From Eucommia ulmoides (lineage: Eukaryota; Streptophyta; Magnoliopsida; Garryales; Eucommiaceae): 64,000 nucleotides of DNA. The first letter of the stretch is position 1. Every line of letters begins with the position of its first letter. The stretch is from positions 38,912,501-38,976,500 of the forward strand of contig CM028328.1 in NCBI GenBank assembly GCA_016647705.1. The letters run 5' to 3'. A program made the position numbers and the translations under genes. Positions 20,241-55,400 of this stretch are shown piece after piece. Under the pieces are notes generated by a model. It saw nothing but the letters and a program-made list of their open reading frames with translations. It had not been told where the DNA came from and ran no database searches.

Positions 20241-21562
20241 TGATAGGTGGAATTTATCTATATATTCTCAAGCCGATTTTGGTAGGTTTTGAGTGTTATT
20301 GTTGTGTTTTAATATGTTTTAACTCGTTTTTATTTGTTTTGGTATTAATCATGTGTTTGGGATGAGAAATGATGAAAATGGTTGAAAATAGAGAAAATCG
20401 ATGGGACATCGGTGGAGAAATGGTTGAAAAGATGAAAAAATCCAACTTAAGAATTTGCAGATCCACTGCTGCAGCGATGAAAACCACTGCTGTAGCGATC
20501 AAAATGTAGAAACATTCTGTTTGACCACCGTTGCAGCGGTGAACTTCACCACTGCAGCGGTTAATTGGCAAAAACCTTTTGACGTTTCACTGCTGCAACG
20601 ATTCTTCCCACCGCTGCAGCGGTCCAACACCACCTGACAAAGATATTTTGCTATATTTTCTTTAATATTTTTGATCCCTACTTGATGCATTCTTTCCCAA
20701 CACTCTTAGCACGTTTTTGGGAATACTTTGGGAGTGTTTTTGAGAGATCTCAACCAACCAAAGAGGGGGAACACAATTGGAGAAGAGAAAACAAGATCAG
20801 AGCAGTTTTTACGGACACCACCTTCAATAACATCTATTCTCCCTTATTTCTCTCTTTAATTATCTATGGGATTGATGTAATTTACTAATCTATGTTGTTT
20901 GAGTAAATCATGTTTCGTTAACGGTTGTTCATCTCTATTCGATTGAATTTATCGATTTATTACTTCCATTATATGTTTATTATGGTATTTTGGTTGATTT
21001 GAAAATACGGAATTTGACATTCGGGAGAGGTAACTCCGGATTTGGACTAAGGTTTAAACACAACGCGACGATCTAATGACTCGAGAGAGTATTAGAAAGT
21101 GTGCAATTCGTGAGGTTGGGGCGAGACTCATGTGATCAGTGTCGTTAGGTGCTAGATGGGGACATCGACGTTGATGCGAAGTCGGATATTCATTCACTTT
21201 GCACTCGGGAGAGGTAGTAAGTGATTTTACGATACCTAGATTATCAGGTAGGTTGAATACCATTAATGTAAACTAAATTGGATCAAATGCGTATAAGTAA
21301 ACAAAGTTAATCCCTAGATAATCTAATCCCACATATAATATACTTAGTATTATAGTTTTATTAATTGTTAATTTAGTTTAGTATATACTGAAAAAAAACC
21401 CCTAAATTCAATCGGCTAGATAAAATTCGGTTATGATAATCGTAGTACTTAATGACAATTTAATCCAATCCCTGTAGATATGACAACCTTTCTCATTTAC
21501 TGTTCTATAAAACTTGACCCGTACACTTGCGGTGAAAGTAGTGACGTAATATTCCGCTACCA
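20241..21562 (+). repeat. LTR of the Athila-like element
   Basis: It begins TGATAGGTGG, ends CGCTACCA directly before the primer site, and is 1322 bp long. It is clearly related over most of its length to the inverted solo LTR at 38342-40033 (shared TGATAGGTG start, ACTCGGGAGAGGT and GACTCAyGTGA words, CGCTAC end). Between 20455 and 20630 it carries five or six spaced copies of a GCTGCAGCG-type palindrome (CTGCTGCAGCGATG, CCGTTGCAGCGGTG, CCACTGCAGCGGTT, CCGCTGCAGCGGTC). Confidence 0.85.
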
Positions 21563-22668
21563 AGTTTTTGGTGCCATTGCCAGGAATTAGTTTTTAGATT
21601 GTTGTTGATATTGTGAGTAAGTAACTTGATTTTAATTTAGGCATTTATTTTGTTCATAATTTTTGTTTTTAGTTTGTTTTGTTTTTCGAGGTACTTGGAG
21701 ATGGGGCATCAACAAGTCCTCTTAAATTTTTCTCAGCGGGATTCCGAGCTGTTTTATTGTGCTTAGGATCAATATAAGGAGTTTCTCATCCAGATTCTAA
21801 ACCATCATTTGCTGAGGGAATGTCAACTACTGAACTTCCTCGATGGGTTACTAGCCACAACAAGAAACTGGGTCGAATGAAGAAATAGTACTACCTCATT
21901 CGACCAACTAACCGCGGATGAAGACTATTGGTTGCTGAAAGACATGGCAGGGTTTGATTTTCATAGTTAGAATTATTTAACAAGCCACTAAAGCTTGGGG
22001 GGGTAATTCCACCATTTCGACGCCATTGGTTGACACCCCGGACCAACATTTGGAGTCTTCCCCTACCCTGGAGGAATTGTTCACTGAATTTATGGGGGAA
22101 ACTCAAGCTTTTTGGAGGAAAACGAATGACCATCTCAACGAGCATGAGGAATGTCTTGATAATATTGAGACGACCTGCGCTGAAATTGATGCAATCGTAA
22201 CGTCTCTTCAGACACAAATCGGTCAGCTTATCTGCTTTATTGAGGCCAAGTCAGAAACAGTGGCACTGAGAGACAAAAATGCCACATGCCTTGAAAGCCA
22301 CTGTAAGAAATCGAATGCAAGAGGGAGGACATCGGGATTGATTGTTGATGAAGATCCTAATGAGAAGGAGCCCCAAAAATTGACCAACGATGAAGAATTA
22401 CAAGACAACATTTGTGATTATCTACCGTTTGAGATCCACGTTGTGATTCTAACACCAATCAAAGACGAACATTTCTATGAGGATCCAATGTGGCTAGCTT
22501 GTCCTCCACCACTGTTAACTCCATTCATCCACGCCTACTATGCACATAATCCGGAGAAGAATCAAGTTGAAAATATGGGCCAAACATTGTCAAATCTCGC
22601 CAATCTTGAGGGCATTCTGAATCAAGACCCGTATGTTGTGTTGTATGACACATACTATGGGCGAAAGC
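21563..22668 (+). pseudogene. Primer site and gag-like region of the Athila-like fossil
   Basis: The primer site (21569-21586) is followed by sequence reading as gag. In the open stretch 22026-22668 a coiled segment (residues about 15-80, with NIETTCAEIDAIVTSLQTQI and GQL) resembles the ..LE.QIGQLA.. coil of Athila/Tat gag proteins. An acidic region follows and no zinc knuckle is visible. Gag forms the particle in intact relatives. This copy is a fossil, interrupted at 22669 by a solo LTR. Confidence 0.6.
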
Positions 22669-23001
22669 TGTAATACCCCAAAAAATTTATATTTTTGAAA
22701 ATATTATTTTATATAAAAGTTTAATATTTTTGGGACTGTTTTGCCAATTTATGGCATAAATAATATTTGATAATTTTTTGGAGGTAAATGTTTATTTTAA
22801 ATTAATTTTAGAAATTTTTGGACCAATGTATTATTTAAAATATACTTCTATGAGTTTTGGGATATAATTAATATTTTATTTATTTTAAAAGGATATTTAT
22901 GTAAATAATGATATACACATATCTTCATCTAATAAAGACACCCAAACATATATAAAATTAAAAAGACACACATGTATGTGTGTTGAGTTGATCATGATAT
23001 G

Positions 23002-23055
<54 letters not shown>

Positions 23056-23754
23056 GATAATGACAGTCATAATACTTAAACATGAAGAAAAGGGCAACTA
23101 ATATAGAATATAAGTTGTTCATTTGATTTGAGGAGGGATTAGATTTTATTAAGTACATACTCACACATAATAAGGTGGCTTTTGGACAAGAACAAAAAAA
23201 GGTGGATAGGAAAAATATAGAATTTATGTGGTAATTAGAGGGGTTGGAGTTCTACTGAGCATTGGCTCACAACCCCACATTTTTTATTGCAGGGCCGGTG
23301 AGAGCGAAACGGCGACGGGGATTACATAAGAAATTCTATTTGTAATAATTGTAGTTAATATTTACCGTTGTAAAAATTGACTTGATAAATTGAATATAAT
23401 TATTGTCGTCGTATGTTAAAATTTAAATCAATAATTATAATTGTTGCCTTAATTGTATATGAAATTACAAATTTAAACGTTAGCATTAAATTGACCGGCG
23501 CCAGGAATTTATTTGGGTATTTAAAAATAATGTGGCGACAGGAATTGCACCTGAATTTTTAATTAATTTGGAATAGTTGAATTTATTATTTACCGGTGTA
23601 AAAATTGAATCAATCAATTTGATATTTGTGATTATCGCCGTTGTTTGAAAAATTTATCGGATTTTATAGAATGAAAATTCGGTCAATCGGTTTTAGTGTT
23701 AATTTCTTCAAGGAGAGAAACCGTATAGCGGCTTTGGGAAACCAGGTTGCTACA
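22669..23754 (+). repeat. Solo LTR nested in the Athila-like element
   Basis: It begins TGTAATACCCCAAAAAATT and ends GGGAAACCAGGTTGCTACA, 1086 bp, with TG...CA termini. There is no internal region on either side. The flanking 5-mers (AAAGC and GAAGT) agree at only three of five positions, so any TSD has decayed or the boundary is off by a base. A (TAA)n run sits at 23006-23055. The family also occurs at 1150-1818 and 29516-30934. Confidence 0.8.
23006..23055. repeat. (TAA)n microsatellite
   Basis: About 16 TAA units inside the solo LTR. The same kind of tract lies in the related LTR at 30429-30485, inverted. Confidence 0.95.
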
Positions 23755-25117: not shown

Positions 25118-25148
<31 letters not shown>

Positions 25149-25409: not shown

Positions 25410-25414
25410 GTAGG

Positions 25415-27560
25415 GTTGTAGAGCCAAAAAATATTTGAAATTAGAGAGCTGGACACTTCAACCGAGGGCTCTAACACGTTTGGGATGCGGTGCACATCTA
25501 CGCATCCGATACAATGAAAGTACAAGTAATTATGTCATTGCAACATTCGAGATAGAGCATAATCATGACCTTGCTAACCCAAGAGTTATTCAATTCTTAC
25601 GTTCTCACCGCCATATCAATGAAGATGACGAAGCACAAATGCAATCCATGCACAGTGTCGGGGTTAGAAGTAGAAATATCATGGATTTAATTTTAGAACA
25701 AGACGGCTCGTATGACAATGTGGGTTTCACCAAGAAGGACCTGGACAACAACTTGAGTTAAGCACAACGCCGATCTGTAATACATGGTGATGCTGAGTTA
25801 GCTTTAGCTTATCTTTGTGCAAAATAGGACAGTGATCCATCACTCTACTACCACTACGCCGTTAACCACGAAAGCTGGTTGAGTCGACTATTCTGGAGTG
25901 ATTCGATTAGTCGACTGGATTATGGATACATTGGGGATGTTATTTCTTTCGACACTACATACCGAACCAATGCATATGCGAAACCCTTTGTCATATTGGC
26001 AGGGGTGAATCACCATTACCAGATAATAATTTTTGCATGTGCATTATTAGCAGACGAGACGGTTGGAACATACATATGGGTTATGGAGACACTGTTGATA
26101 GCTATGAATAAAAAATACTCCGAAACGGTAGTGACTGATGGTGGCAAAACGATGAGGAAGGTAGTAGAAGTTATCTTACCAAACTCATGTCACTGACTAT
26201 GCAACTGGCATTTACAGCGTAATGCTATATGAAACATCAAGCCGACTGACTTCCTCCAAGACTTCAAGTAGTGTATGGCACTGAACGAAAACCACGAGCA
26301 ATTTGAGAAGGAGTGGCTAGCATTGATTGAGAAATATGATCTATAGTCAAACAAATAGATGTATGAGACCTACGGTTTGAAGCATCAATGGGTTGAAACA
26401 TATCTACGGGATCATTTCTTCACCGGCATGAAGAGCACACAACGTTGTTAGGGTATGCATTCTTTTTTGAATCTCTTTCTCAAGCGACGATTGTGATTGT
26501 ACGAGTTTGTTCGCAGTTACGATTGCGCATTGACCAGGATTCGTAATAATAAGGCAATGATAGATCATAAAATAATGAATACAACACCTGTTCTCGTCAC
26601 TTCCTTACTGTTTCTTGAGAAACATGCCTCTAAAGTCCTCACGCGTACTATATTCAATATAGTCCGCAATCAGATTCAGAACGAGAGCAACTATTTCGTA
26701 GTGCAAAGAATAGAACACGACAACTCAACAAGTTACTATCTAGGAAAGTATTCGAGGCCAGAGAAGAGGTGGTGGGTCGTATCGTATCAGGCGGAGAAAC
26801 GCTACATACGTATGAGCTTGAAAGTAGAGTCATTTGGGATACCGTACTCCTACATAATTACCATCCTAAAGGTTGAACATCTAAAAGAAATCCCTGAAAC
26901 GGCTTATTTAAAACGATGGACAATGGGGGAAAAATCGAATTGCCTTCCAGAGACAATTTCGTAGAAGACAAGACATGGTTTTCTAGGTGGCTTATGCTCG
27001 AAATTGTGTTACTATGCATCACAGGGTTGCAAATCAACTAAGGCTGCTCATTCAGGGATTTTGTTCTTAACTAAAGAAGCTAAATTGACATGTGATAAAC
27101 AACGACACCCATCCAACAGCTGTGCAGAAGGTTCAGGCACCCAATTTGGTGTATAAGATCTAGATACTGTGGTGACAAAAGGTGTTCCACGCGTTGGAAA
27201 GAGTCGGACAAGAAAATCAAAAGCATGACGCTGTGGATATTGTCGGTAAATTTCTTCTCTATTCATGTGTGCGTACGTTTCTTTATTATTCGGACATCCA
27301 GTCATTGCCTGGTATTGTACGCTTATAGGATGAAAGGTCACACGAGGCCAAAATGTCTGAAGTTTCACCCAGGAAATCAAGGAGAAAAAGGGTTGAATAC
27401 AGATCTTAACATCACTCTCCAAAGAAGGGATGATGATTTAGTTGATGTGGTAAGTCCGGGACATGTCAATGATGGTGTAGAGAATCCTCCAGTCCTGTAT
27501 GGGGTAGGTGCGACGACATATCATGTTCATAATGCTTCGATTTGTTGCGTGAGTTTATGA
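25415..27560 (+). pseudogene. FAR1-type Mutator transposase, main part
   Basis: Continues the FAR1 domain (GCRAKKY, then LTRLGCGAHLRIRYN and ATFEIEHNHDL). The MULE catalytic domain follows: the first Asp at 25951-25953 (ISFDTTYRTN), the second at 26137-26139 (VVTDGGKTM), then the CNWHL C-x2-H motif near 26199. Further on lies a degraded SWIM zinc finger (VESFGIPYSYIITILKVEHL, normally with C and H where Y and I stand). A C-terminal C-x2-C-x4-H-x4-C zinc knuckle (RCGYCR joined to MKGHTRPKC) spans an intron of about 90 bp starting at 27243. Several in-frame stops (TAA 25759; mostly TAG or TGA later) show it is dead. It reads toward the minus-strand PTPD gene. A domesticated FRS gene is less likely given the transposon-like neighbours. 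Confidence 0.85.
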
Positions 27561-31633: not shown

Positions 31634-34010
31634 TGTTGATCCTAAGATTTTAATAGACAATTAAGTGTTAATGTTTTTGGTGGAACTAACGAGTTTATTG
31701 AGTATTTCAGTGTAAAATTTTTACTATTGATGTTATCATGAAGATATTATTAAAGATGCTAAGGATGTTGAGAGATAATCAAAGAGTTGTACATTAAGAT
31801 CCTGAAGATCCTAAAGAATTTAGGTGAAACAACTTAAACTAATCTTTACTCTTAATGTATCCCGATTAGGATCACACATGAAATAAAAATGAATTTATAT
31901 TTATGTGAGTTTTTTATAGGGTTCTAATTAGTTAACATATTTGCTCCAATGTGAAATTGAAGAAGAAATATTGACCTAAGAAAGATTAGTGTTTAAAATT
32001 GATTAATAGTGTCAATTAAGTTAACTGAGAAAATAAATCGATTAAAGGGTCGAAAACGTCGAAGATTGGAGTTGAAATATAATTGAGAAAGAGAGATCCA
32101 ATACTAATCACTCAACCGACAGCAAGGAGATCGGTTAACCGACGACAAGTGTCTGAGAATTGGAGAAGTCTTTGAATTGATTGGTCAACTGACTGAGAGA
32201 GATCGGTCAACCAATGACCGAGATGTGAACTCTTTGAATCGATCGGTAATCGACCATTGATGATCGGTCGACCGACCATGGCCAAAAAATGGCCTGAGGA
32301 GCATCGTGAATCAATCGGTCAACCGACACATGAAGGATCGGTCAACCAATTGGAGAATAAGTTTGGCTTGGGCTACAACTTGAATCAATCGTCCGACTGA
32401 TGGGATTTGGTTGATCAACCGACTGTGTTGTTTCAGGTTTGGAGGATTTCGTGAATTTGATCTAAAAGTAGTCGTTAATTAGCCGTTTTTGGCTGATTTT
32501 TTGTAGATATCTCAGGGATTTGAACTTATAATAGATATATCATCCTTATTTGATTATCCCTATAGATAAGGTACACTTGTTTTAAATGTTTCTCAAATTG
32601 GTCTATTTAATACTTTCTATCTTATCGATTTGAGATTGAGAAATATTTGAGGGATTTAATTGAGAGATTGAAAAGCTATAATTAAGTATTTTGAACCAGG
32701 ATCGAGTCATATTTATTTATGGGGTCTATATGAGTAATTAAATGTCTTATCTTGTGGGAACTAGCCGTTAGAGGGCTTGTTTCAAATCTATTTTAATATA
32801 CCTGCGTTTTTCACTTGTGAGATATCTGAATATATCATTCTATCAAGAGCTATTCAGTTCCTGATATTTCTGAGAGTCATTATTTTGAAATCATACCAAG
32901 AGTGTATTGTGAGATTATCTTTGAGAAAAGTTTTTGAGAAAGTGTGCTGAAAGTTTTGTTGTCATCAATCTAAAGTCTTACTACGATTCAATTTTCATTT
33001 TTTTGGTGATATCCTGGTGAGATCGTTTCAAACTTTTACTTTTAATTTTTATTTGATATCATTATTGATTGCTTGGATTTTTTGATCATTTAGAAATCGT
33101 TTTCTGAACTTGAAATTGCATAAAAATATTTTAAAATGATTTTTGGTGAAAATCTGATTACGTGCTTAATTGTGTACTCCCCACTTATTTGATAATCAGA
33201 TTTTGAATTTCTCCCGTAAAATTCTATCACTAGTAAATTCGGGACATTAATTGAGTTTAAATTAATTTGAGGTGGTAAAAACTCCGAGTGGAAAAAGACT
33301 TATCATTTTTTTCTTAATTGGTGAGTTGTGTGCGAATTAAATATTATTGGAAATATATAATCAGGGGTTGCTTGGTTTTAATCTCTTCCGGTAAAGAGAT
33401 TGAGATTTGATCTTTACTTAAGATATAAAAAGGTCATATTACTCTTTTTCGTGAAAAGAGAAAGGTGTTAATTCTTCCTAAATAGAATTAGTTTATGTGA
33501 TTTTGTAATGGTTCCATCCTTACCGGTGAAAAGGATATTTGAAGTTTTTTTTTTTTTTTTTTTGTGAGGTTTTATTCTTAGCCTAAGTATAAAAGAATTA
33601 GGTTAATCTTTAGCCTGTTAAAAATATTGAGGTTCTTCCTTAGCCTGTGAAAATAGAATTGTAAAGGTTGATTTTGAGACTGTGAAAAAAATCATTGTGT
33701 AAAGTTTTGGTTCCTATCTTAGTGGTTTAGTGGGTGCGAATCTCTGTGAGGCTCGGAGGACTTGATTAACCAAGAATAGCTTGGTGAACTAGTATATATT
33801 GTGGTGTGTTGTTTTTTTACTTTATTTATTTTCTGTTGTTTGGGTGTGCACCTAGTGTTTATTACACTTATCCGTTGTTATATAATGAAATAATAATTAA
33901 TTTAGGATTAAATTAATTATTTAAATTTAAGTGTTGAAAAGATAATTATTTGTTTTAATTTTAAAACTACCCAATTCACCCCCCTTCTTGGGTAGATCAC
34001 TTGGCCAAAA
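31634..34010 (+). repeat. Left LTR of the SIRE-like complex
   Basis: 2377 bp from TGTTGATCCTAAG to CTTGGCCAAAA before the primer site. Four LTRs of this family lie in the window (also 37043-40817 inverted, 43293-48231, 44663-47287). From 32105 to 32420 it has about ten spaced GATCGGTCAACCGAC-type words. A poly-T run lies at 33545-33562. Confidence 0.85.
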
Positions 34011-35010
34011 ATTGGCGTTAGAGTTGGTTTTAACTCGATATGCTTCATAGTATATCTAAACAAGATTACGTAAGGTGGATTGATTCTGATATTATTCTCA
34101 CTATTAAACACGATCACATGGAGTGCCCTGATTATGATATTATTTGCACTATTGTTGAGTCTTCTACTTCTTTCGATAGTCATTATTCCGTTCGTGAGAA
34201 TAATAGATGTCGTGATAATGTGAATGCAGATAAGGCTATTAAGATGCTTATTGCCCTTATGAATTTTTTGGAAAAGAGAATTTTAAACTTGGGCAAAAGA
34301 TTGCAACTCTTGAAAATAAGAAGTTTAATACTGTCAAATCTCTTAAGAAAAAGAATTTGGACAAATATTTTGAAACTGTTAAGTTTAGAAATGCTTTATC
34401 GGAAATTGGTAAGTTGTATGAAAAAATTGAGTCTCTTGAAGATGAGAACTGTGTTTTGAAAAATGATATTTATGATCTTCGACATAATGATTTCAAAAAG
34501 AAAAATCTTGCAACTTTAAATGAGGAATTGAGCATTGAATTGGATAATGCAAGGTGTGAGCTTGATAGAGCTCATGTGAAAATCTATTCTGTTGAAAATG
34601 AGTGCCAAATTCTTAAGAATGATCTTGAATTTATGCATAAGAAGAATTTTGGTCTACAAGTAAACGTTAGCACAAATGAGCGATTACTTGAGAAGACACA
34701 AAAGAAGCTTGATGAAGCAATGAATAAATTCAAGGATTTTGAGAGGACTAAACCTATTGAAAAACCAATAGTCACTAAAGCAGCTCCTCAAAATCGCAAA
34801 CAATATCATGCTCCCGTACGGAACAATAACTATCCGAAGAGACGTACTAATAGTATTAAATGCTTTTATCGTGGGAAGATTGGTCATTATGAGAAATATT
34901 GTTATTTATTGCATGGTTACCCTATTGGATCTAGAAACAACTGGATACCAAAAAAGAAAAATGTTGATGCAAGTACTAATCGGAGATTCAAACAAATACA
35001 ATGATAAAAT
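34011..35010 (+). pseudogene. Primer site and gag-like region of the SIRE-like fossil
   Basis: After the primer-site-like ATTGGCGTTAGAGTTGGTTT, frames from 34040 read as copia gag. The second (34357-35004) is a long coiled coil (residues 1-130, rich in L, E, K, N) followed by a basic stretch and a zinc-knuckle-like segment (CFYRGKIGHYEKYC, 34861-34902). Gag binds the element RNA in intact relatives. This copy is a fossil. Confidence 0.7.
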
Positions 35011-37042: not shown

Positions 37043-40000
37043 TGTTGGCCTAGTAGAATACCCAAGAGGGGGGGTGAATTGGGTAATTAAAAATATATCA
37101 AAATAAAACTTGATAAATCAAATAATTAATTTTATTCCTAAATTAATTATTATCTTTATAACACAGCAAAATAATATTATCAATCTAAGTGTATGCTGAA
37201 ACAACAAAATAGCAAAGTAAATATTGCAGCACACCAAAATATATCTTGGTTCATCAAGCTACTCTTGGCTAGTCTAGTCCTCCGAGCCCCACGGAGATTT
37301 GCACCCACTAATTCTCAAGATCCCTTTAAAGGTAGGAACCAACCCACAAACCGATTCTTTTACAGGCTCAAAATCAACCTTTACAATTTTCTTTTTTCAG
37401 GCTAAGAAAGAACCTCTACTTTTTACAGGTTAAAGAATAACCTAATTCTTTTTATCACTACAGCTCATGAATCAAAACCTCACAAAACTCTCCAATTATC
37501 CTTTTTCACAAGTAAGGATGAAACCTTTACAAAACACTTACAATGCAATTCTATCCAGGAAGAATCACTACCTTAATCTATTTACAAGAAGAGACTGAAA
37601 TCCAGCTACCCCTGATTAAATACCCCCAGTGGTATTTAGCCCGTCACAACTCACCAATACAAAAATTGATAAGAAGTAAATCTCACTAAGAACTTCTACC
37701 ACCCCAGATAAATAATAACTCAATTAATATCCCAACTAGTGATAGAAATACGTGAGATACAAAAATCTGATTTTAACAAGATATGGGTAGCAAATTAAAG
37801 CACGTAATCAGATTCAAGAAATTGTTTGTAAAAATATTTTCTTCAAAAAACAGAAACAATTTCTAAGATCATTTTCCAAAATATAAACAAGTAATACAAT
37901 GAAAGAATATAATTGGAAAGATCTCACTCGGAATCCACAGAATAATCAAATAAAACAATGTAACTTCAGATCCGATAGCAGCAAATATTAATCGCAATTG
38001 ATCTTCAAGATCACTCTTAGAGTAGCCCAAGAACTCTCAGAAAGATAACTCTTAGAAAAACTCATTCTTATGATATGATATGATTTCTCTTCTTTACTAC
38101 TTCAATTTGCTAATGAAATTCGCAGGTCTATTTAAAAGAACATGTAATCAGCCTTCTAACGGCTAGTTTACAAGTGTCATGACAATTAAAAACTCTTTTA
38201 GACCCCTTATATCATAAGGACTTCAATTAGGTTCAATTTCACTTAATAAAAACTTTTTAAAACTCTCAATTAAATCCCCAAAGTATTTTTCAATCAAAAT
38301 AAATAAGTGTAGAATCCATTTTAATTACCAAATTGAGAAACTAGTAGCGCGTAAATACGCTGCTACTTTCACTCGCAAGTATATGAGGTCAAGTTTTAGT
38401 ATAGATCGGGAGAGTTAGGGTTATCGTGTCCATAGGGATTGATTTTGACTATAATTGAATACCGCATTTATCATGACCTAATTTTATCTAGGCGAAGATA
38501 AATTGAATAAAATTAATTATACTAATACTAAGTTAATTAATCTAATTAAATTTACTATACTAATATTACTATGAGATGTTTAGGGAAAGTATTGCCTAGG
38601 GATAAACTTTTGTTTACAAAAACGTGTTTGGTCTCGTTTTAGTTTACATTAACGGTGTCCGACTTATCCGATAATCTCAGTTCGTAAACTCTCTTGCCAC
38701 CTCTCCCTAGTGTAAGATGAGGGATATAACGCGACTTCGTGTCAACGAAGAAGTCCCCCTCGACGTCTTAACGACCCTAGGTCACGTGAGTCTCTCCCCA
38801 ACGTTATTTATTGCACACAATCCAACTCCCTCCCAGGTTATTGGATCATCGCGTTGTATTTACGCTATCAACAATCTCCGTTCTAAAAATCCCTGGCCAC
38901 CTCTCCCGAGTGTAAGACGAGGGAATACGCGACTTTGAGTCAACTAAGAAATCTCCATCAACATCTTAATGACCCTAGGTCACGTGAGTCTTGCCCCAAC
39001 ATCATTGATTGTCTACAATCCAAACCCCGACCGTGTTATAGAATCGTGGCGTTTGTTTATTCTAGTCCGAATTCGGAATTTGTCAAACTCCATATTATCT
39101 ATATGTAAATCTAAGCATAATAAACAAATAATACGGCAAACGCAATCAAAATAACGAAGAACAACCGCTAACCAAACACAAACTCAACAAAACAACATTT
39201 TTATAAATATATTTTAATCCCTAGACAAATACCTGTTTAGCTCATGGCCATTGCCGGTTATACAATGAAAACAAATCTAAACATGCTCAACTAACTACCG
39301 AAGTTAAAAAATAAAAGAAGAAACGAAAGAAACTTAGCCTAGTCCGTAGATTTGTCGCTAAAAAGGCTTCGAGCTCGTTTCTTCTTTATCGCAACGTGAT
39401 CTTCTCCTTCGAAATTGGTTGAGCACTCCCAAAACCTCTCAAAATATCACTCCATATGTTCTAAGGGGTCTCTTGGCCTAATGGAGACGAGAGGAGGAGA
39501 AAATTAGGCTCAAAATATCCTAAAATATCTAAAATAATATATAAACTGGCGCAAAGGTTTTCGCCTAGGCGAAGGAAACTTCTCCTAGGCGAAGTTACTA
39601 CAGGTAGGTTGGTTAACTTTCTGCCGGATTTCTGCCTAGGCGGTAGAATTTTCCGCCTAGGTCGAAAAACTGCAGGTTTGCATTTTGTTTTGACTGTAAC
39701 TTCTTCATCCGAACTCCGATTGAGGTGATTCAAAAACCTATGGAAAGCTAATAAAATGATATACAACTTATATGTTTTGATTTTTTCCAAAATAGGATTG
39801 AATCATAGTCCAAAATAGCCTTGAAGTTACAGAACCTGTACCGGCTTTGCACATTTTCGCCCTTTTTCCACCGTTCTTGATCCGATTTGATCGTTTTTGA
39901 TCCGTTTATATACCTTTTCACCTGAAACACCTGATTTAGACAAAAACACATAAAAGCATATTAAAACATACTAAACATACTCAAAAACTAACAACGTTCG

Positions 40001-40817
40001 GATTGGAAATAGATAGGTAATTTACACCTATCAGAAACATTAATATTTAATGAACCATATATTAAATATTAAGAATATCCCTTATATCTCACTCAAATCT
40101 TAACAAAAAATGGCTACTTTTGGATCTAAAATCGAATCAAACAATATCTTAAACCAGTACATTCGGTTGACTGCCCAAAGCCATACCATCGCTGCAGCGA
40201 GCATAGGTCGACTGCTCGATCAACTCCCAGATTCAGAGAGTAAGTCATGATTTCACTGGCCGACCGCTCGGTCGACTCGCAAATTCAGAGAGTTTAGATG
40301 TTTTCACAGGTCGACCGGTCAGTCGACTCTTCAATTCAAGATGTTTCATCTTCCTTCTTTGGTCGACTCCTCAGTCGACTGCTACCTTCTGCATCTATTC
40401 TCTGATATCATTTTTAACACATTTTCTTTTACAATTTTGCCCTTTAACTAATTTCTTTTCTCAATAAGCTCCACTAAATTTCTCAAATTTCATTTTAACC
40501 ATTTATAAATATTTCTTTTCAAATCACATATTTGAGCAAAAAATTTCACTTAGCCAAAACACACATAAAAGAGAAAATTCATTTTGTACCATGTGTGTGT
40601 TCCTAAATGGGATATTAAGAGTTAAGATTCACTTGGGTTGTTTGCCCTAATTTTTTCAAACTCTTAATTCTTTATCATCATCTTGACATCTTCATTTGGC
40701 ATCCATTTAATTTGACGTCTTCATTACTGGAACTTTAAATCACTGAAACACACAATTAAACATTAGTTCCACCAAAACATCAATACTTAATGGTTCATCA
40801 AAATCTTAGGATCAACA
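37043..40817 (-). repeat. LTR of the inverted SIRE-like relative, interrupted
   Basis: Without the nested solo LTR and its duplicated 5 bp it is about 2.08 kb. Between 40150 and 40390 it carries spaced words such as GGTCGACTGCTCGATCAACT, GGTCGACCGGTCAGTCGACT and, once, ATCGCTGCAGCGAGC. Confidence 0.8.
38342..40033 (-). repeat. Solo LTR of the Athila-like family, perfect TSD GAAAC
   Basis: In its own orientation it runs TGATAGGTGTAAATT to CGCTACTA, 1692 bp. GAAAC flanks both ends (38337-38341 and 40034-40038). It is the same family as the LTR at 20241-21562, with matching start, promoter-proximal and end regions. Its palindromic words (39550-39665) are of the CGCCTAGGCG type instead of GCTGCAGCG. 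The flanks belong to the interrupted SIRE-like LTR. The perfect TSD suggests it is younger than its host. Confidence 0.9.
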
Positions 40818-42480: not shown

Positions 42481-43292
42481 TTCCATCTTCCATATTCTTA
42501 TTATGGTTATGTTATTTGGACAAGTCCCACATTAAAATTCTAGTCTGTAATAGTTAATCTAAGTTTGTGTGGAATCTAACTTAGTAGTGTGAAAATTTTG
42601 ATGGACTAGACTTAATCATATTTAACTAGATATTTATCTCTAATGATGATCCACATGGTGTTTATGATCTTTGTGCTTAAAAGTTGATTTGTTGAAAATG
42701 GGTTTTAATTCTTAAAAATTGATCTTATTTTTTAGTAGATGTTATACATTAAAAATCTCTTTTTATATGAGTTGATATAATATGAATAATTTTTTTATGA
42801 AATGATATGTTTTAATATGGTTTTAAAGGATTAAATATCAATATCATGCTAAGTTGCTAGAGTGTTTTTGACTACTTTAGGTTTACTCTTTCAAGCATAT
42901 ATTAAATTATTTGACTAAAGTGGTAGTGGTATGTGGTTTCCCTTCTCCACTTTTTGAGATGACAAAGGGAGAGAAAATGTATTGGTGTTTATTGAAAATC
43001 TTTATTGAATTGATTGTTAAAAAGGGGGAAATTTAAGTGGGAAACTATAATTGAGCATTAAACGAGTTAGTTAATGCTTAGGATTTGTTCGCCTAAGCAT
43101 TGTACTGATATAGAGGGAGTTTATTGATCATATTTTGTGCTTCGTTGAATATCTGATAGGTTTTTAATTTATTCTTCATGATTGTGTTTTAACGAGTTAA
43201 AAAATCCGTCCTCGGATTTAGGGGGTATGTGGTTACATTATTGTTTTGAAGAAAACATCAAAATTAATTGTCATCATAAAAAATGGGGAGAT
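42481..43292 (+). other. 3' non-coding region and polypurine tract of the SIRE-like complex
   Basis: AT-rich sequence without a frame, ending in the polypurine tract AAAAAATGGGGAGAT (to 43292), directly before the LTR start TGTTGATCC. Confidence 0.65.
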
Positions 43293-46200
43293 TGTTGATC
43301 CTAAGATTTTGATGAACAATTAAGCGTCGATGTTTTTTATGGAACTAACGAGTTTATTGAGTGTTTTAGTGTAAATGTTCTACTGATGATGTTATCACAA
43401 AGATATTATTAAAGATGCTATGGATGCTGAGATACAATTAAAGAGTTGCACATTAAAAGACTAAAGATCCTGAAGAATCTAGGTGAAAATAACTCAAACT
43501 AATTTTTAGTCTTAATGTATCCCGATTAGGATCATACATGACACAAAAATGAATTTATATTTATGTGAGTTTTTGATAGGGTTCTAATTAGCTAACATAT
43601 ATGCTCCAATGTGAAATTGAAGAAGAAATATTGACCTAAGAAAGATTAGTGTTTAAAATTAATTAATAGTGTTAATTAAGTTAATTGAGAAAAAAATTTG
43701 ATTAAAGTGTCGAAAACATCGAAAATTGGAGTTGAAATATAATTGAGAAAGGAAGATCCAACATTGATCGGTCAACTGATGGCCAGGACATCAGTCAACT
43801 AACGGGAAGTGGCTAAGAATTGGAGAAGTCTCTGAATCAATTGGTCAACCGACTGAGAGAGATTGGTCAACCGATGATCGAGATGTGAACTCTCTAAATC
43901 GATCGATCAACCGACTATCGATGATCGATCGACCGACCATGGCAAAAAAATGGCCTGGGGAGCATCTAGAATTGATTGGTCAACCGACACATAAAGGATT
44001 GGTCGACCGACTCGTAAATAAGTTTGGCTTGGGCTACAACCTGAATCGATTGGTCGACTGATGGGGTTTGGTCGGTCAACGAATTGTGTTGTTTCAGGTT
44101 TGGAGGATTTCTTGTATTTGATCTAAAAGTAGCCGTTAACTAGCCTTTTTTGGCTGATTTCTAAGGGATTTGAACTTATAATACATATATCATCCTTATT
44201 TGATTATCCCTATAGTATGGTACACTTATTTTAAGTGTTTCTCAAATTGGTCTATTTAATATTTTATATCTTATCGATTTGAGATTGAAAAATATTTGAG
44301 AGACTTAATTGAGAGATTTAAAATCTATAATTAAGTGTTTTGAATTAGGATTGAGTCATATTGATATATGGGATCGATATGAGCAATTAAATGTTATATC
44401 TTGTGGGAACTAGCCGTTAGAGGGATTGTTTCAAATCTATTTAAATAGACCTACGTTTTTCACTTGTGAGATATCCGAATATATCATTCTATCAAGAGTT
44501 ATTTGGTTCTTGAGTTTTTTGAGAGTCATTATTCTGAAATTATACTTAGAGTGTATTGTGAGATTATCTTTGAGAAAGTGTGCTGAAATTTTTTTTGTCA
44601 TCGATCTAAATTCTTACTACGATTCGATTTGTCATTTATATCCTGGTGAGATTATTTCAAGCTGTTGATCTTAAGATTTTGATGGAAAATTAAATGTTGA
44701 TGTTTTTGGTGAAACTAAGGGATTTATTGAGTGTTTCAGTTTATAAGTTCCAATGAAGATATTATCATGAAGAAAATAAATGCTAAAGAGACTGATAAAG
44801 ATGATGGACGTTAAGAGACCGAAGAAATTGAAGAACCTAGGAAAAACAACTCAGGTTAAATTTTAACTCTTAATGTATCCCGATTAGGATCACACACGAC
44901 ACAAAATGATTTTCAAAATTATGTGTGTTTTTATAGGATTCTAATTAGTTAAATTATTTGCTCCTATGTGTAATTGAAAAAAAAATAAAGATAATTGATT
45001 AAAATTGAATTTAAGATTTTAGTGGAGCTAACCGAGAAAAGAAATCAGTTAAAGGGTGAAAACGTCGAAGAAAATAAATTAAAATCGGATTAAGGAGAGA
45101 TGTTCCAGCTTGAGCAGTCGACTGGAAGGTCGACAGATGCTTAAAAGAAGAAGTTGCTGGATCGTTCGATCGACATGTAAGTCGACCTATGGACAAAAGA
45201 GGAAGTCTCTGAATCTTCCAATCGACAAGTGAGTCGACTTATGTAACTTTCTGAATCATCCAGTCAATAGACGAAGTATGAGCGGTCAACTGATGGGCGA
45301 AGGAATTTTGGCTTGGCTACGTCTTGAATCGGGCGATTGACAGACGGGCCTTGGTCGGTCAACAGATGGTCAGTTTCAAGATTTGTGGAATTTCGAGATT
45401 TATTCACATACTAGCCATTTTATGGTTAGGATATGAGAGATATCTTAGGGATCTAAACTTAATTGAGATATGATCTATCTATTCTATTATCCCTATTAAT
45501 TTGGTTTATTTAATTAAATATTATTTTAATTAAAGTGCTTTAATAATTTATATTTTGATGAATTTTGATTTAAAAATGTTTAAGGACCAAAATGAGATTT
45601 TTCAAGAATATTTTTAAATGAAAAAGATCTATTTTGATTATATATAATGTATGAGGTCATGGGGGTGTCATTTAATGACATAATATTTAAAAAGTAGTTG
45701 TTATAAGATATCTTTGAAATTCCTATATTTAAACCTGCGAATTTTGAGTTTAAATATTGCTATTTTGGTGGAGAATATTTTGGGCCTAAAATATGAGAGA
45801 GATTTAAGGGATTTTATTTTGACCTTACGATTTAGTCCATATATTTAAATATAATACTTTCTATACTTTCATTGATTAAGATCAAATTATTTTGGGAACT
45901 GAATTGAGAGCTTTATAAGTTATATTATTAAGTTAAATATACCAGGATTGAAAGGAATCAATATATGAGGTCTATAGGTGATTTTAAATGACACATTTTG
46001 TGGAAACTAGCCGTTATAGGGCTTGTTTCAAGTGGCTTTAAATAGACCTGCGAATTTCACATGACAATACAATCAATATAAAGAAATATTCTATTCCTAA
46101 ACTTGCTAAGACTTATCATTCTGATATTATATTGAAAAATATTGTGAGATTATTCTGGAGTTAAAGTTCTTGAGTTAAAGCGCTATTTGAGTTAGCGTTA

Positions 46201-48231
46201 CCAATCTAAGCTGTCTTGCGATCCTACGTTCAATTTATTTGGTGTTTTCCTGGTGAGATCATTCCAAACTTATTCTTTAATTGAATATTTTATTATTATT
46301 ATTTTCTTGGTGAATTTATCTTTTTGATAAATCATTTTTGAACTTTAAAAGCATAAAAATCTTTTAAAAATGATTTGAGTGTTAATCTGATTACATTGCT
46401 TAATTGTGCTACCCGCATTCTTTATTTTAATCAGATTTTGTTTTCTCACTTTATTTCTATCACTAGTATCGGGACATTAATTGAGTATTAATTAATTAAT
46501 TTGGGGTGGTAGAAGCTCTAAGTGGGTAAAAACTTATCAATTCAGTAATTGGTGAGTTGTGTGCTGATTAGATATTGTTGGGAATATCTAATCAAGGGTA
46601 GCTTTGGGTTTCGATCTCTTCCTGTAAAGAGATTGAGGTTTGATCTTTGTCTAGAGTACAAAAAGGTTAGATTACTCTTTTCCCTTGAAAAGAGCTTAGG
46701 TGTGATTTTTTCTGATTAGGATCAATTGTGAGTGAATTGTAAATGTTTCATCCTTACCTGGAAAAATGATACTTAGAGTGATTGTGAGGTTTAATTCTTG
46801 AGCCTAAGTTATAAAAAGAATTAGGTCATGATTCTCCTTATAATATAATTAGGTTAATCTTTAGCCTATGAAAGGATTAGGTTAGTCTTGAGCCTGGAAA
46901 AAAGATAAGGTTATTTCTGAGCCTGTGAAAAGGGAATGTAAAGGTCGATTCTGAGTCTGCAAAAAAAATCATTGTGAGGGTTTGGTTCCTACCTATAAAA
47001 GAATCTTGAGTTTAGTGAGTGTGAATCTCCGTGGGGCTCGAATGACTGGATTAACCGAGAGTAGCTTGGTGAACCAGGATATATTGTGGTGTTCTACTTT
47101 ATTTCTTTATATTATTTATATTCTATTATTTGGGTGTGCACCTAGTTGATAACACATATCCGCTGTTATAAAGATAATAATTAATTTTAGGATAAAATTA
47201 ATTGTTTGATTTTTGAAGTGTTATATTCTGATAATTTTTAATACTACCCAATTTACCCCCCCTCTTGGGTAGCTCACTGGGCCAACACAAGCTTTTACTT
47301 TTAATTGTTATTTGATATCATTATTGATTGCTTGGATTTTTTGATCATAGAGAAATCGTTTTCTGAACTTTAAATTATATAAAAATATTTTAAAATGATT
47401 TTTGGTAAAAATCTGATTACGTGCTCAATTGTGTGCAACCTACTTATTTTATAATCAGATTTTGAATTTCTCATGTAAAATTCTATCACTAGTAAATTCG
47501 GGACATTAATTGAGTTTAAATTAATTTGAGGTGATAGAAACTCCGAGTGAGAAAAAACTTATCAATTTTTTATAATTGGTAAATTGTGTGCGGATTAGAT
47601 ATTGTTGTGAATATCTAATCAGGGGTAGCTTTATTTCAATCTTTTCCGGTAAAGAAATTGAAGTTTAATCTTTACCTAAGGTATAAAAAAGTTAGGTTAC
47701 TCTTTTTCGTGAAAAAAGATAGGTGTTAATTCTTCTTGAATAGAATTAGTTTGTGTTTTGTAACGGTTCCATCCTTACTGGTGAAAATGATACTTGAAAT
47801 GTTTTTTTTTTTTTTTTTGTGAGATTTTAATCTTAGTCTAAGTAAAAAAGAATTAGGTTAATCTCTAGCTTGTTGGAAAGATTAAGGTTCTTCCTTAGCC
47901 TGTGAAAAAAGAATTGTAAAGTTTGATTCTGAGTCTGTGAAAAGAATTATTGTGTAAAGGTTTGGTTCCTACTTAGTTAAAAGAATCTTAGTGGTTTATT
48001 GGGTGCGACTCTCCATGGGGCTCAGAGGACTGAATTAGCTAAGAGTAGTTTGGTGAACCAATATATATCGTGTTGTACTGCTTTTTTACTTTATTTATTT
48101 TCTGTTATTTGGGTGTGCACCTAGACCTTGTTACACTTATTCCCTGTTATATAAAGAAATAATAATTAATTTAGGATTAAATTAATTGTTTGAATTTAAG
48201 TGTTGAAAAGATAATTATTTGTTTTAATTTT
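43293..48231 (+). repeat. Right LTR of the SIRE-like complex, interrupted by a solo LTR
   Basis: It matches the left LTR over 43293-44662 and again over 47288-48231, with the solo LTR 44663-47287 between. Words of the GGTCAACCGA and GGTCGACCGA type lie at 43765-44090. Similarity to the left LTR is high by eye, so their divergence could date the insertion. Confidence 0.8.
44663..47287 (+). repeat. Solo LTR of the SIRE-like family, perfect TSD CAAGC
   Basis: TGTTGATCTTAAG to CTGGGCCAACA, 2625 bp. CAAGC lies at 44658-44662 and 47288-47292. It is clearly diverged from the LTR it sits in, including its spaced words (45110-45370: AGTCGACTGGAAGGTCGAC, CATGTAAGTCGACC, GAGTCGACTT). It is therefore a distinct subfamily and not a tandem copy. 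Confidence 0.9.
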
Positions 48232-49146
48232 ATATGCAAATATTTTTTGGATTTACATGTTCAATCACTTTCATATTGCTATAAAATACACGAACAGGCA
48301 TTTCGTAAACGTCAGACGATAATTTACTTAAAGTTCTAATACCTTGGTCTTCCAAATACTTAAACAATAGACTTTTAAAGGGACCTTTTTCAAATTTGAG
48401 GTCCCTTTCGTTTTTCAAGGTTCATGAAGCAAAGATATGAACATATCGTTGGCTGGTAGCTTCATTTTCAAAGAACTTACCATGCCCCTTGGTCGCGACC
48501 ATCTTGTTCAATCCTTTTCCACGCGAGTTGTCTCCTAGGGTAGACGATTGAACCTCACCCTTCTTACCAGACGAAGTCGTCGCACCATCGACCACGTCGG
48601 GTTCATTTGGTGGAACTTTTCATTCCCTTTGTCTGCGATCCTCTTCTTCGGCATTCTTCAAAAAGAGTTGTCTCATAGGGCAGACGATTGAACCTCACCC
48701 TCCTTACTATAAGGAGTCGCCGCACCATCTACCACGTCGGGTTCATTTTGGCGGAACTTTCCATCCCCTTTGCATGTGACCCTCTTCTTCGGTATTTTTC
48801 GAAGGGAGTTGTCTCCTAGGGAAGATGATTGAACCTCACCTTTTTTACCACACCTAGTCGTCGCACCATCAACCGGGTCGGCTTCATTATGGGACAACAT
48901 ACCATCACCTTTTACCACAGCCCTCTTCTTTGGCCTTACCCGACAAAAGTTGTCTCCTAGGGCAGACAATTGAACCTCACGATCTTTGCCGTAATTATCA
49001 TTCCCACGATCCACCAGGCTAGCTGCCCCACCAGCCTTTATTCCAATAGGCGTCATCACATGCAAAACATTTCCTTTCGCAGATCTATCAATTGAAGAGT
49101 CTACATTGTGTTTTGTCGCGTATCTAGCATGTGTAGTAGGAGCCAT
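48232..49146 (-). pseudogene. PTPD-domain transposon gene, N-terminal part with 47-residue tandem repeats
   Basis: On the minus strand from the ATG at 49144-49146 (MAPTTHARYATKHNVDSSID). Four imperfect ~140-bp units follow (about 49040-48510), each with a GEVQSSSLGDNS, then a PKKR and GDGKFRQNEPDVVDG theme. The first two and part of the third are open in one frame; a stop after EVQSSAL and frame slips follow. The last part (48418-48232: FEKGPFKSLLFKYLEDQGI, then VRVFYSNMKV) is the start of a PTPD domain. It stops at the SIRE-like complex, and its other half lies at 30960-31633. The basic/acidic repeat region is probably disordered. Function is unknown. Confidence 0.65.
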
Positions 49147-49199
49147 TGACTTAGGTTTGGAAATTTTGGTTTGAAAAGGAGATGAATGTTGAATCAGAC

Positions 49200-51440: not shown

Positions 51441-51469
51441 TAACATGCAAGTTCACAATTCAAAAATTT

Positions 51470-52380
51470 GTTATATAAAAGTTACAAGTTTGTCAAGGAA
51501 CTTGTAATTTTTATGAAAGCAACTCGTAACTAGGAGAGACAAATGGTGAACTAAGTAGTTTTGCAAAGTTACAAGTTCGTTCCATGAAAGTTAAAAGTTT
51601 GTCTAGAAACTTGTAACTTTTATAGATGGAACTCGTAACTAGGTAAGAGAAATAGTGAGCAATGTGGTTTTGTAAAGTTACAAGTCTATTCTATAAAAGT
51701 TATAGGTTTATCTAGGAACTTGTAACTTTTATAGAAAGAACTCGTAACTAGAAGAGAGAAATGATGAGTAAGGTGGTTTTGCAAAATTACAAGTCAATTC
51801 TATAAAAGTTACAAGTTTGTCTAGTAACTTGTAACTTTTATGGAAGGAACTCGTAATTAGGAGAGAGAGAGATGGTAAGCAAGGTAGTTTTGCAAAGTTA
51901 CAAGTTCGTTCCATAAAAGTTATAGGTTTGTCTAGGAACTTGTAACTTTTATGGAAGAAACTCGTAACGATGAGAGAGAAATTGTGAGCAAAGTGGTTTT
52001 GTAAAGTTACAAGTTCGTTCCATAAAAGTTACAGGTTTGTCTAGGAACTTATAACTTTTATGGAAGAAACTTGTAATTAGGAGAGATAAATGGTGAGTAA
52101 GGTGGTTTTGCAGTTACAAGTCCGTTCCATAAAAGTTACAAGTTTGTCTGGGAACTTGTAACTTCTATGGAAGAAACTCGTAACTAGGAGAGAGAAATGG
52201 TGAGCAAGATGGTTTTGCAAAGTCATAAGTTTCGTCCATAAATGTTACAAGTTTGTTTAGTAATTTGTAACTTTTATGGAACAAACTTGTAACTAGTTTT
52301 TTTTTGCAAATTAGAAGTCCATTCCATTAATGTTACAAGTATTTAGATAGACTTGTAACTTTTGAGGCAAAACTCGTAAC
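51470..52380 (-). repeat. Hairpin-unit array B (9 units, period ~109 bp)
   Basis: Units start near 51473, 51577, 51690, 51799, 51910, 52019, 52126, 52235 and 52321. Each has CCATAAAAGTTACAAGTT, loop TGTCTAGG, AACTTGTAACTTTTATGG. The spacer has AAACTCGTAACTAGGAGAG, AAATGGTGAGCAAGGTGG and TTTTGCAAAGTTACAAG. It is the reverse complement of the array A unit. It lies about 2.3 kb upstream of the PTPD gene start. Confidence 0.9.
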
Positions 52381-53712: not shown

Positions 53713-54614
53713 TAAATTATGAAACAACTCAATAATCATTCTTAACCAAATACATTTAGGTTGTGTTTGGGTAAGAGATTTGGGGAAGATATTTGATTTG
53801 CTCAGAGGATTTCAAAATTCGTTTTTGACAATTTTCTTGTTTGGGTATTTATGGGGAGGAATTTGTAAAATCTTTTTATCTTAAAATAAAATGAGTCATT
53901 TTGAAATCCATTTGATTTAGGTGTCATTTGCCAAATCCATTGAAAGAAGGATTGTGGAATCTTCGCGATTTCTCTTCACTCCTGAGGCCCTCCTTCTTCT
54001 GTTTCTTCGTTGTCCATCATTTTTCTTCTTTTGCTTCTTCATTGTCGTCCATTGATCTGCATCGCCTTCCATCGATCTGCGCTGCCATCTTTCTTCTTCT
54101 GCTATTCGTCGTCCATCGTCTTCTTCTTCGTTATTGTTTATTGTTCGTCGTCATCGTCATCCACCGTTTATTCATCGTCGTTGTCCACCGTTTTTTCCAT
54201 TGTCGTAATTATTCATGTTCGTTTTCATTTGCTCTCCTTTTACCGTCTCTGCCAAGCGTTCATTCCCTCATCATTCCTATTGCTCATCGACAATGTTCTG
54301 CACTTGTGAAGCCTTTTATGTAAGACCCCGATTTCATGTTTGTATGCCATTTAAGTGCATTTTGAAAAAAAAAAAAAAAAAAAAAAAAAAGTAAGGAAAA
54401 ATTAGAAGTTTGGGGGAGGAAAGAGTATTTTAAACTAAATATATATATATATATATACATAAGTGTGCATCTGTGTTTGTGCCCTGAAATCACGATAGAG
54501 GAATGGGAGAGAGAGAGAGGAAGTGGTAACGTGGCATGGTTTTCTCCACAAATCCATATATATATATATACATAAACGTAATAATCAAGGATCACCATCA
54601 TTCTAGAAGAAAAA

Positions 54615-54651
<37 letters not shown>

Positions 54652-55009
54652 GAAGGAGAAGAAGCCCCCGGAGAAGCTGTCGGAGATCACTGGTGAAGGT
54701 TCAGGGTGTTTTCTCATGGTTAATGGTTGTCTGGGAGGTAGGAGTATGTAAGTGTGACATTTTTTTGGGATCATATGGAAGCTGGTATGTGTGTGTGAAG
54801 GGTGTGTGCTTTGTTTTGCTGTTTGGGGTTGCAACCGGTGGGGTTGGGGTGTTGTTTTAGTTGGGTTGAAAGGAATGAGGTTGGTAGTGTCAGTTGTAAA
54901 TTGGGATGGTTGATCGTGGAGGTGGAGTAATGAATTTAGTGGCCGGAGCCGGTGATGCGAAGGGATTTAGGGACTGGTCTGTTCTGTTCTGTTCGGTTAG
55001 GGACGAAGG

Positions 55010-55400
55010 AAGTTTCGCCTAAGCGGTGGAAGTTCGCTTAGGCGGTAAAAGAACAGAGAGTAAGAAGTTGCATGTTCGCTTAGGCAGTGGAAGTTCACTT
55101 AGGCGGTAAAAGAACAGAGAGTAAGAAGTTGCATGTTCGCTTAGGCGGTGGAAGTTCGCTTCGGCGGTAAAAGAACAGAGAGCAAGAAATCGCATGTTCG
55201 CTTAGGCAGTGGAAGTTCGCTTAGGCGGTAAAAGAACAGAGAGCAAGAAATCACATGTTCGCTTAGGCGGTGGAAGTTCGCTTAGGCGGTAAAAGAACAG
55301 AAAGTAAGAAATCGCGTGTTCGCTTAGGCGGTAAAAGAACAGAGAGCAAGAAATCGCCTGTTCGCCTAGGCGGTGTATTTTCGCTTAGGCGGTGGGGAGC
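55010..55400 (+). repeat. 61-bp minisatellite, ~6 units, built on a GTTCGCTTAGGCGGT word
   Basis: Each unit has GTTCGCTTAGGCGGTGGAAG, a second TTCGCTTAGGCGGT, then AAAAGAACAGAGAG and a AAGAAATCGCAT-like end. The last unit contains the full palindrome CGCCTAGGCG (near 55361). The array lies about 700-1080 bp from the left end of the solo LTR. Confidence 0.9.

Follow-up and report, generated by a model that had tools for sequence, protein, structure and literature searches.

Clusters of GC-rich palindromes have been described in the long terminal repeats (LTRs) of Sireviruses, where they were named RM boxes (Bousios 2010, PMC2829016), and here we compare with them the palindromic-word arrays in a 64,000-nucleotide stretch of the Eucommia ulmoides genome (contig CM028328.1, positions 38,912,501 to 38,976,500; hereafter the window), which is occupied by nested, decayed LTR retrotransposons. 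According to the sections of the 2010 paper used here, RM boxes are high-copy palindromic GC-rich motifs (at least 8 copies per element), most of which start 200-400 bp into the LTR and extend for 300-500 bp; 13 elements carry related but mostly different motifs, CpG islands accompany them, and within a Ty1/copia set they were described as Sirevirus-specific. Their role was left open in those sections. The palindromes of maize Sireviruses (Bousios et al. 2016, as covered in parts of PMC5311732 and PMC10760457) likewise occupy the regulatory portion of the LTR, but are explained there by RNA structure and silencing, with CACCGGAC...GTCCGGTG as the abundant word. Regulatory and small-RNA readings of Sirevirus palindromes are therefore both in print (same sources and PMC2829016, in part). 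Repeat-array LTR enhancers such as Tnt1 box I also consist of short repeated, sometimes symmetric activator sites, but the portions of PMC2829016 and PMC10760457 that treat them describe no layout and word class common to unrelated lineages of one host.

All seven patches listed in the initial annotation, which had spoken of six LTRs, are present in seven LTR copies (A1, A2, S1 to S4 and T) that fall into three sequence-unrelated groups, A, S and T. The three groups share a like layout in which GC-rich words, frequently paired, recur at quantised spacings, and homologous A-type LTRs carry different words. That no named description exists, as the initial annotation supposed, does not hold for group S. 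These arrays sit in a Sirevirus, as judged by a polypurine tract (PPT) at the LTR and by Ty1/copia proteins, and the Vitis motif CGGTCGACCG shares its core with the S1 words (PMC2829016, sections used). Compared with the CGG-CCG core of the RM boxes, S1 has TCGGTCGACCGA, and the words of S3 and S4 are mostly AGTCGACT or GGTCGACC, which lack the outer CGG-CCG; the S word centres lie at about 440 to 785 bp in LTRs of up to 2.6 kb, and the words counted in each LTR copy number 6 to 10. The A and T elements differ from the described system in that they are not Sireviruses (RVT_1 and SH3_Tf2-1 domains in T, a tRNA-Asp-like primer-binding site (PBS) in A) and in that their words are of the form CGC-N4-GCG (CGCCTAGGCG, CGCTGCAGCG), not CGG-CCG. 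Neither a ladder of helical spacings nor a rule for pairing, nor any switching of words, is described in the sections of PMC2829016 used here, and among the papers listed in our searches of the open-access literature we found no description of arrays in Ty3/gypsy-type LTRs, of a helical ladder or of a word switch. Hence, the Sirevirus arrays were already known, and the quantised spacing and the word switch in homologous slots go beyond the open-access literature searched.

Palindromic-word arrays and their spacing

We searched de novo for palindromic-word arrays, taken as groups of at least four GC-rich 10-mers that resemble one another and are close to palindromic. In 29 sequences (the window and L001-L028, 292 kb) 33 such arrays were detected, whereas three dinucleotide-Markov shuffles yielded 2.3 on average. 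The search recovered six of the seven window patches, the S3 patch (45112-45370) being visible only by word scan, and added a window array at 1593-1700 (TCGTCGTCGA) that is not an LTR patch. The patches make up 2.8% of the window and contain 21 of its 68 perfect GC-rich palindromes of at least 8 bp, the remaining 47 lying outside. Their GC content is 47-50%, versus 28-37% in the remainder of the same LTRs. When the search for dispersed-word arrays does not demand palindromy, 20 of the 57 arrays have a palindromic word, compared with 13.7% of background 10-mers. Within the seven copies the arrays lie about 190-1070 bp into the LTR, the first word centre being at 231 bp from the LTR start in A1, 375 in A2, 480 in S1, 481 in S2, 457 in S3, 441 in S4 and 700 in T (one stray match far outside the patch was dropped in each of A2, S1, S2, S3 and T). 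In a sample of 20 stretches positioned at round coordinates, 16 of the 26 arrays belong to S (9), A (5) and T-like (2) LTRs, and the other 10 were not assigned to a group. Array starts in this sample lie 189-231 bp into the A-type LTRs and 425-462 bp into the S-type LTRs, and because these distances are typical of each family the positions are non-random. An array is present at 9/9 S-type LTR starts, two of them with diverged words (L022, L023), and at 5/7 A-type starts, one A-type start truncated by the stretch end being excluded. In two A-type LTRs (L013:1017-2278 and L026:5043-6254) the flanks match and no array was detected. The observation made in the initial annotation is thus confirmed.

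It erred in treating the gaps as arbitrary lengths of 15-60 bp, since the spacing of the words is quantised. In the whole genome (946.7 Mb), exact pairs of the CTAG word (CGCCTAGGCG) number 5345 at a centre spacing of 12-42 bp and 7802 at 43-73 bp, and those of the TGCA word (CGCTGCAGCG) 347 and 255, with no pair for the reversed-word controls; TCGA-word pairs at 10-40 bp number 1290, versus 15 for the reversed word. The spacing statistics for these words use the first 50 places listed per search, and a TCGA 8-mer scan with two mismatches was dropped from them as too noisy in favour of one mismatch. Among the 200 listed CTAG and TGCA pairs the spacings cluster near 20-22, 32-33, 38-43, 49-53, 58-66 and 68-73 bp, with a single pair at 14 bp, and spacings of 23-31, 34-37, 44-48 and 54-57 bp are absent. 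The period is 10.3 bp for the listed CTAG pairs (resultant 0.79), 10.1 bp for the listed TGCA pairs (0.68) and 10.5 bp for all 24 exact CTAG-TGCA mixed pairs found genome-wide at 12-42 bp (0.81); the jitter null, in which each gap was shifted by up to 5 bp in 1000 rounds, gave 0/1000 in each case. The mixed pairs are spaced by 31-34 bp (16), 40-42 bp (4), 20-21 bp (3) and 29 bp (1, off the ladder), so that 23/24 are on or near the ladder of the single words. All 14 loci chosen around exact CTAG and TGCA pairs were A-type LTRs, and therefore these counts speak mainly for group A. The first 50 listed TCGA pairs are at 12 bp (39), 22-23 bp (6) and 39-40 bp (5).

The gaps within single arrays are equally restricted. 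Those of S1 and S2 are mainly 22-23 and 50-51 bp (once 40, once 61), and those of S3 and S4 mostly 12, 39-41 and 52 bp (once 64). In 20 more A1-like arrays, picked from 40 listed of 3267 candidates, the gaps are mostly 21, 41 and 42 bp, with exceptions at 40, 44, 46, 54, 56, 63 and 83 bp, and a gap of 246 bp in one copy (L046) in which an insertion interrupts the array. Sixteen more T copies, for which the looser of two word patterns was used in scanning, have gaps of 19 and 42 bp, rarely 18, 41 or 43 bp. Over 35 arrays, with gaps above 80 bp excluded, the best single-gap periods are 10.3 bp for A-type arrays of TGCA words, 10.6 bp for A-type arrays of CTAG words, 11.3 bp for T and 9.7 bp for S. 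Phasing by the helix is thus seen for CTAG, TGCA and mixed pairs, whereas in S it is seen only for the sums of two successive gaps (period 10.3 bp, resultant 0.74). To lessen the relatedness of copies, which it does not remove, we clustered the long spacers (gaps up to 75 bp) by average linkage with identity cut-offs of 60, 65 and 70%; for shuffled pairs the 99th percentile of identity is 65%. At 65% identity the 42 clusters have a resultant of 0.73 at 10.4 bp (null 0/2000). Average linkage replaced single linkage at 62%, by which 83 of 91 long spacers were merged and the remaining 9 clusters were aperiodic (556/2000). The two S arrays with diverged words (2/13) were kept in the unbiased k-mer test below and excluded from the fixed-offset, period, clustering and binding-motif tests.

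A spacing near the same ladder, with a different word, was noted in a 109-bp minisatellite at 51475-52296 (+), which has an inverted relative at 19370-19797. Its AT-rich word, GTTACAAGTT/AACTYGTAAC, is present in both orientations, often 20-22 and 42-47 bp apart.

Word switching and shared sequence details

Comparison of A1 with A2 reveals 68-70% identity on both sides of the patch, and yet the homologous slot contains CGCTGCAGCG-type words in A1 and CGCCTAGGCG-type words in A2. Among 23 rows of A-type LTRs, 10 have TGCA words, 11 have CTAG words and 2 have no array. In a tree of the flank pieces of these rows, 14 of which had been selected by their word, a branch with support 82/77 separates all 10 TGCA rows from the 11 CTAG rows and the 2 arrayless rows. 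The tree is consistent with one switch of the entire array, as opposed to repeated shuffling, in a direction that it does not show. The CTAG-type word is in addition common to A and T, whose LTRs are otherwise unrelated, and a short sequence separating the words is alike in both (GTGGAAGTT, GTGGAAACTT). The suggestion that these elements are exchangeable is borne out only to the extent that A and T have the CTAG word in common, that A-type LTRs occur with either word and that 24 mixed pairs exist genome-wide at 12-42 bp. A lone perfect TCGCTGCAGCGA, identical to the A-type word, was observed at 40189-40200 within the GTCGAC-word array of S4.

We also looked beyond the words. In an unbiased 7/8-mer test of 23 arrays only a word-derived k-mer exceeded the shuffle maximum, and a spacer motif common to all three families was accordingly rejected. 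The unbiased offset test placed CAGAA at 1.40, compared with a null maximum of 1.39 (60 shuffles) and below the word-derived GCGGT at 1.49. The degenerate motif CAGA[AG], picked after the data were seen, has an offset of +14 relative to the word centre in 7/10 A-type TGCA arrays, 10/11 A-type CTAG arrays and 1/3 T arrays, and at +12 in 6/11 S arrays. This offset is clear within A and only suggestive across the families; with its constant distance from the word centre (14 bp in A and T, 12 bp in S), the motif may belong to the shared regulatory frame proposed below.

Element groups and feature map

No match of at least 80 bp at E 1e-8 connects the three LTR groups, so the initial description of the families as unrelated stands at the level of sequence, with diagnostic proteins in two of the groups; for group A the assignment comes from the PBS only. 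By its sequence features group S is Sirevirus-type Ty1/copia. Its LTRs start with TGTTGATCC, a Sirevirus-like PPT adjoins S2, and gag_pre-integrs, Pol_BBD and rve domains were found in one of two open reading frames (ORFs) of a 4.5-kb piece (L086) between S-type LTR starts 12.5 kb apart. The ORF that follows S1 (34243-35001) has weak coiled-coil matches and, by eye, a zinc-knuckle-like stretch. Group T is Ty3/gypsy and probably Tekay-like, as a piece (L083) flanked by two T-type LTR starts at a distance of 7.3 kb contains RVP_2, RVT_1 and SH3_Tf2-1 domains, with no chromodomain match in the three scanned of five listed ORFs. Group A is called Athila/Tat-type, as a putative assignment, from the degenerate tRNA-Asp-like PBS (4/18 mismatches to the motif). 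In A-type internal pieces, 3/3 ORFs of L084 have no retroelement domain and L085 has no ORF of at least 110 aa; the internal ORF of A1 (21981-22670) has no Pfam match, and the ATHILA family profile PF03078 gave zero matches, its positive controls being equally silent. First-look candidates for LTR starts numbered 3267 for A1, 6060 for A2, 548 for T and 8202 for S1, of which about 40 in each case were scored and listed.

The coordinates are collected in Table 1, in which target-site duplications (TSD) and Tandem Repeats Finder (TRF) periods are also given. Elsewhere in the window we noted FAR1 DNA-binding and Mutator-like (MULE) transposase fragments at 25414-26193, an ORF with a Phloem protein 2 domain at 60967-61365 (-) (E 4.5e-17), and plant mobile domain/DUF7745 fragments at 7036-7401 (-) and 15553-15933 (+), the plant mobile domain matches being below the curated cut-off.

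Table 1 LTRs, word arrays and associated signals in the window (gaps are in bp between word centres).
Feature	Coordinates	Strand	Details
A1, 5' LTR, putative Athila/Tat-type	20241..21568 (end approximate)	+	starts TGATAGGTG; PBS after; homologous to A2 on both patch sides
A1 array	20463..20627	+	six CACYGCTGCAGCGRTG words, gaps 21/41/21/41/21
A1 PBS, degenerate, tRNA-Asp-like	21569..21586	+	4/18 mismatches to motif
S1, Sirevirus-type LTR	31634..34008 (end approximate)	+	then coiled-coil gag-like ORF 34243-35001
S1 array	32108..32424	+	TCGGTCRACCGA words, gaps 23/50/22/61/51/23/51/22
A2, solo LTR of A type	38344..40033	-	nested in S4; TSD GTTTC by eye
A2 array	39555..39662	-	four CGCCTAGGCG-type words, gaps 21/51/20
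S4, Sirevirus-type LTR start	40038..40817	-	resumes at 38341-36992 past A2 insertion
S4 array	40150..40384	-	GTCGAC-core words, gaps 12/40/12/39/64/41, plus one TCGCTGCAGCGA; TRF period 52
Sirevirus-type PPT TGGGGAGATTGTTG	43284..43297	+	immediately before S2; 1 mismatch to motif
S2, 3' LTR of Sirevirus	43293..44674	+	resumes 47288-48232 after nested S3
S2 array	43767..44085	+	gaps 23/50/22/40/22/51/23/51/22
S3, Sirevirus-type LTR	44663..47287 (end approximate)	+	nested in S2
S3 array	45112..45370	+	GTCGAC-core words, gaps 12/52/40/12/52; TRF period 52
T, solo LTR, Ty3/gypsy, probably Tekay-like	54321..56814	+	TSD TTTTA by eye
T array	55014..55392	+	13 CGCYTAGGCG-type words, gaps 19/42

Candidate operator arrays and alternative explanations

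We favor, with somewhat better than even confidence, a reading of the patches as arrays of cis-regulatory operators within what is presumed to be U3, the palindromes being predicted to place dimeric proteins on the same side of the double helix. Each word would be the site of a dimeric sequence-specific DNA-binding protein; as the words (in S, the pairs) recur at near-integer helical turns, the bound dimers would lie on one face, where they could bind cooperatively upstream of the LTR promoter, and the array might act as an enhancer or an anti-silencing platform. The palindromic form of the words suggests dimer sites, and the ladder near 10.4 bp suggests that the bound proteins require one and the same B-DNA face. 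The position early in the LTR suggests control of the promoter, as proposed for the RM boxes in PMC2829016 (sections used). The proteins would come from the host or a host protein family, since unrelated elements in one genome use a like layout and a word that can be swapped in homologous slots. Of the three possibilities in the initial annotation (protein-binding array, methylation target or RNA structure), the first is the best supported because the spacing is helical, and the interpretation as a whole is supported in part. Helical phasing has precedents: in the part of PMC6207667 consulted, maize clade A ARFs have sites at phased spacings of about 10 bp, in pairs that span up to four helical turns, and in the part of PMC3520747 consulted, eliminated sequences of Paramecium show a 10.2-bp length periodicity ascribed to helical phase. 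The maize sites resemble the present arrays in these spacings and in being bound cooperatively by a plant DNA-binding family, but the TGTC core of the ARF sites is not the word here.

Known binding motifs were scanned as candidates for a common factor and were rejected in that role. The auxin response element (AuxRE) is not clearly enriched (4 versus 1.1 expected in A-type CTAG arrays, with a shuffle maximum of 4). W-box matches are numerous only in S (31 versus 4.8 expected in 11 arrays), where the word itself can supply them, and the dehydration-responsive element (DRE) is enriched in S (17 versus 2.1) and barely so in A-type CTAG arrays (8 versus 2.4, shuffle maximum 7). LOB-domain proteins, a further lead, were set aside as a literature search yielded nothing usable. 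In S (e.g. at 32108-32424) many GTCGAC cores appear as GTCAAC; the change resembles CpG decay and gives rise to W-box matches.

Several observations weigh against operator arrays. No motif among AuxRE, W-box and DRE fits all of the words. The single gaps of S misfit a 10.4-bp period (12 and 40 bp dominate, and the resultant at 10.4 bp is 0.59 with the best period at 9.7 bp), such that only the two-gap sums fit the ladder, and the 19 and 42 bp of T are best fitted by 11.3 bp. The lists at 43-73 bp hold pairs with a further word between them, and some of these spacings are sums of shorter gaps; hence these lists are not independent of the short gaps. The jitter null ignores the shared ancestry of family copies. 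When spacers are clustered at 60% identity (27 clusters) the resultant at 10.4 bp weakens to 0.55 (null 0/2000), S alone is not significant at that identity (null 251/2000, best period 8.3 bp), and the best period with clustered spacers wanders from 9.2 to 11.5 bp. Finally, most of the folded arrays are stable as RNA and one set of word pairs covaries, and these results lead to the first alternative.

Neighboring words might pair as transcript hairpins, in the service of the element or as a source of small RNAs in host silencing. As an account of the arrays we consider this unlikely, although it survives best among the alternatives. The folding z-scores of seven stretches with seven arrays are -4.7 (A1), -6.9 (A2), -2.6 (T), -2.4 (S4), -0.9 (S1), -3.1 (L027) and -7.1 (L078), at or below -2.5 in 5/7, but since every palindrome can pair with another copy of itself, folding follows from palindromy alone. 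Covariation is seen in one of three sets: close pairs of A-type CTAG words (n=41) covary (shuffled partners as high in 0/1000, or in 5/1000 with G-U pairs allowed), with CCTAAG common as the first word and CTTAGG as the second, whereas A-type TGCA words (50 pairs, 894/1000 shuffles as high) and T (600/1000) do not. In the 75 close pairs of T, mismatches that read as G-U number 1.84 per pair on the sense strand, compared with 0.40 on the antisense strand. The spacing argues the other way, as a ladder of 10.1-10.5 bp suits B-form DNA better than loop lengths or the 11-bp helices of RNA. In maize, the small-RNA hotspots of Sirevirus LTRs are the palindrome clusters (PMC5311732 and PMC10760457, in part). 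Given that covariation among these three sets is confined to the A-type CTAG words, hairpins may matter in part of the arrays, and the DNA and RNA levels could act together.

Neutral tandem duplication, by which a short unit of about 21, 42, 52 or 61 bp was copied repeatedly and left its length as a relic in the spacing, appears improbable to us. It would account for the T patch, most of which consists of a tandemly repeated 61-bp unit that holds an imperfect palindrome (CGCTTAGGCG), for the TRF period of 52 in S3 and S4, for the variation in word number (4 to 14 words in 16 T copies) and for long gaps that hold a decayed mid-gap word, as in one listed TGCA pair. Many spacers of A and S are dissimilar, however, while the words and the spacings persist; CTAG, TGCA and mixed pairs share nearly one ladder; and neither the palindromy nor the 10-bp steps are explained by duplication. 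That the patches are CpG-rich methylation targets or short CpG islands, with palindromy and spacing as secondary traits, is very improbable, for although the observed/expected CpG ratio is 1.08-1.43 in S and T patches versus 0.23-0.81 in the remainder of those LTRs, and RM clusters adjoin CpG islands in Sireviruses (PMC2829016, sections used), the A1 and A2 patches are not richer than the rest of their LTRs (0.90 versus 1.03; 0.94 versus 1.24) and CpG content leaves the 10-bp ladder unexplained. Insertion-target palindromes (PMC6911290, in part) were rejected because they concern insertion sites, have a weak effect and leave internal arrays unexplained.

For the operator-array reading, the practical consequence is that, with helix-linked spacing found in A- and T-type LTRs as well, the regulatory and the small-RNA readings can be told apart by comparison of half-turn with full-turn spacing. 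Exact word pairs at fixed spacing provide a handle by which such arrays can be found and counted in any plant genome, and by which the protein can be sought. More tentatively, the arrays may reflect a shared regulatory grammar, in which one type of helix-phased frame, made of palindromes in pairs and filled with interchangeable words, was assembled separately by unrelated retrotransposon lineages. If so, this frame would be a common docking site for a host family of dimeric DNA-binding proteins, and the switching of words would record conflict or competition between the host and its elements.

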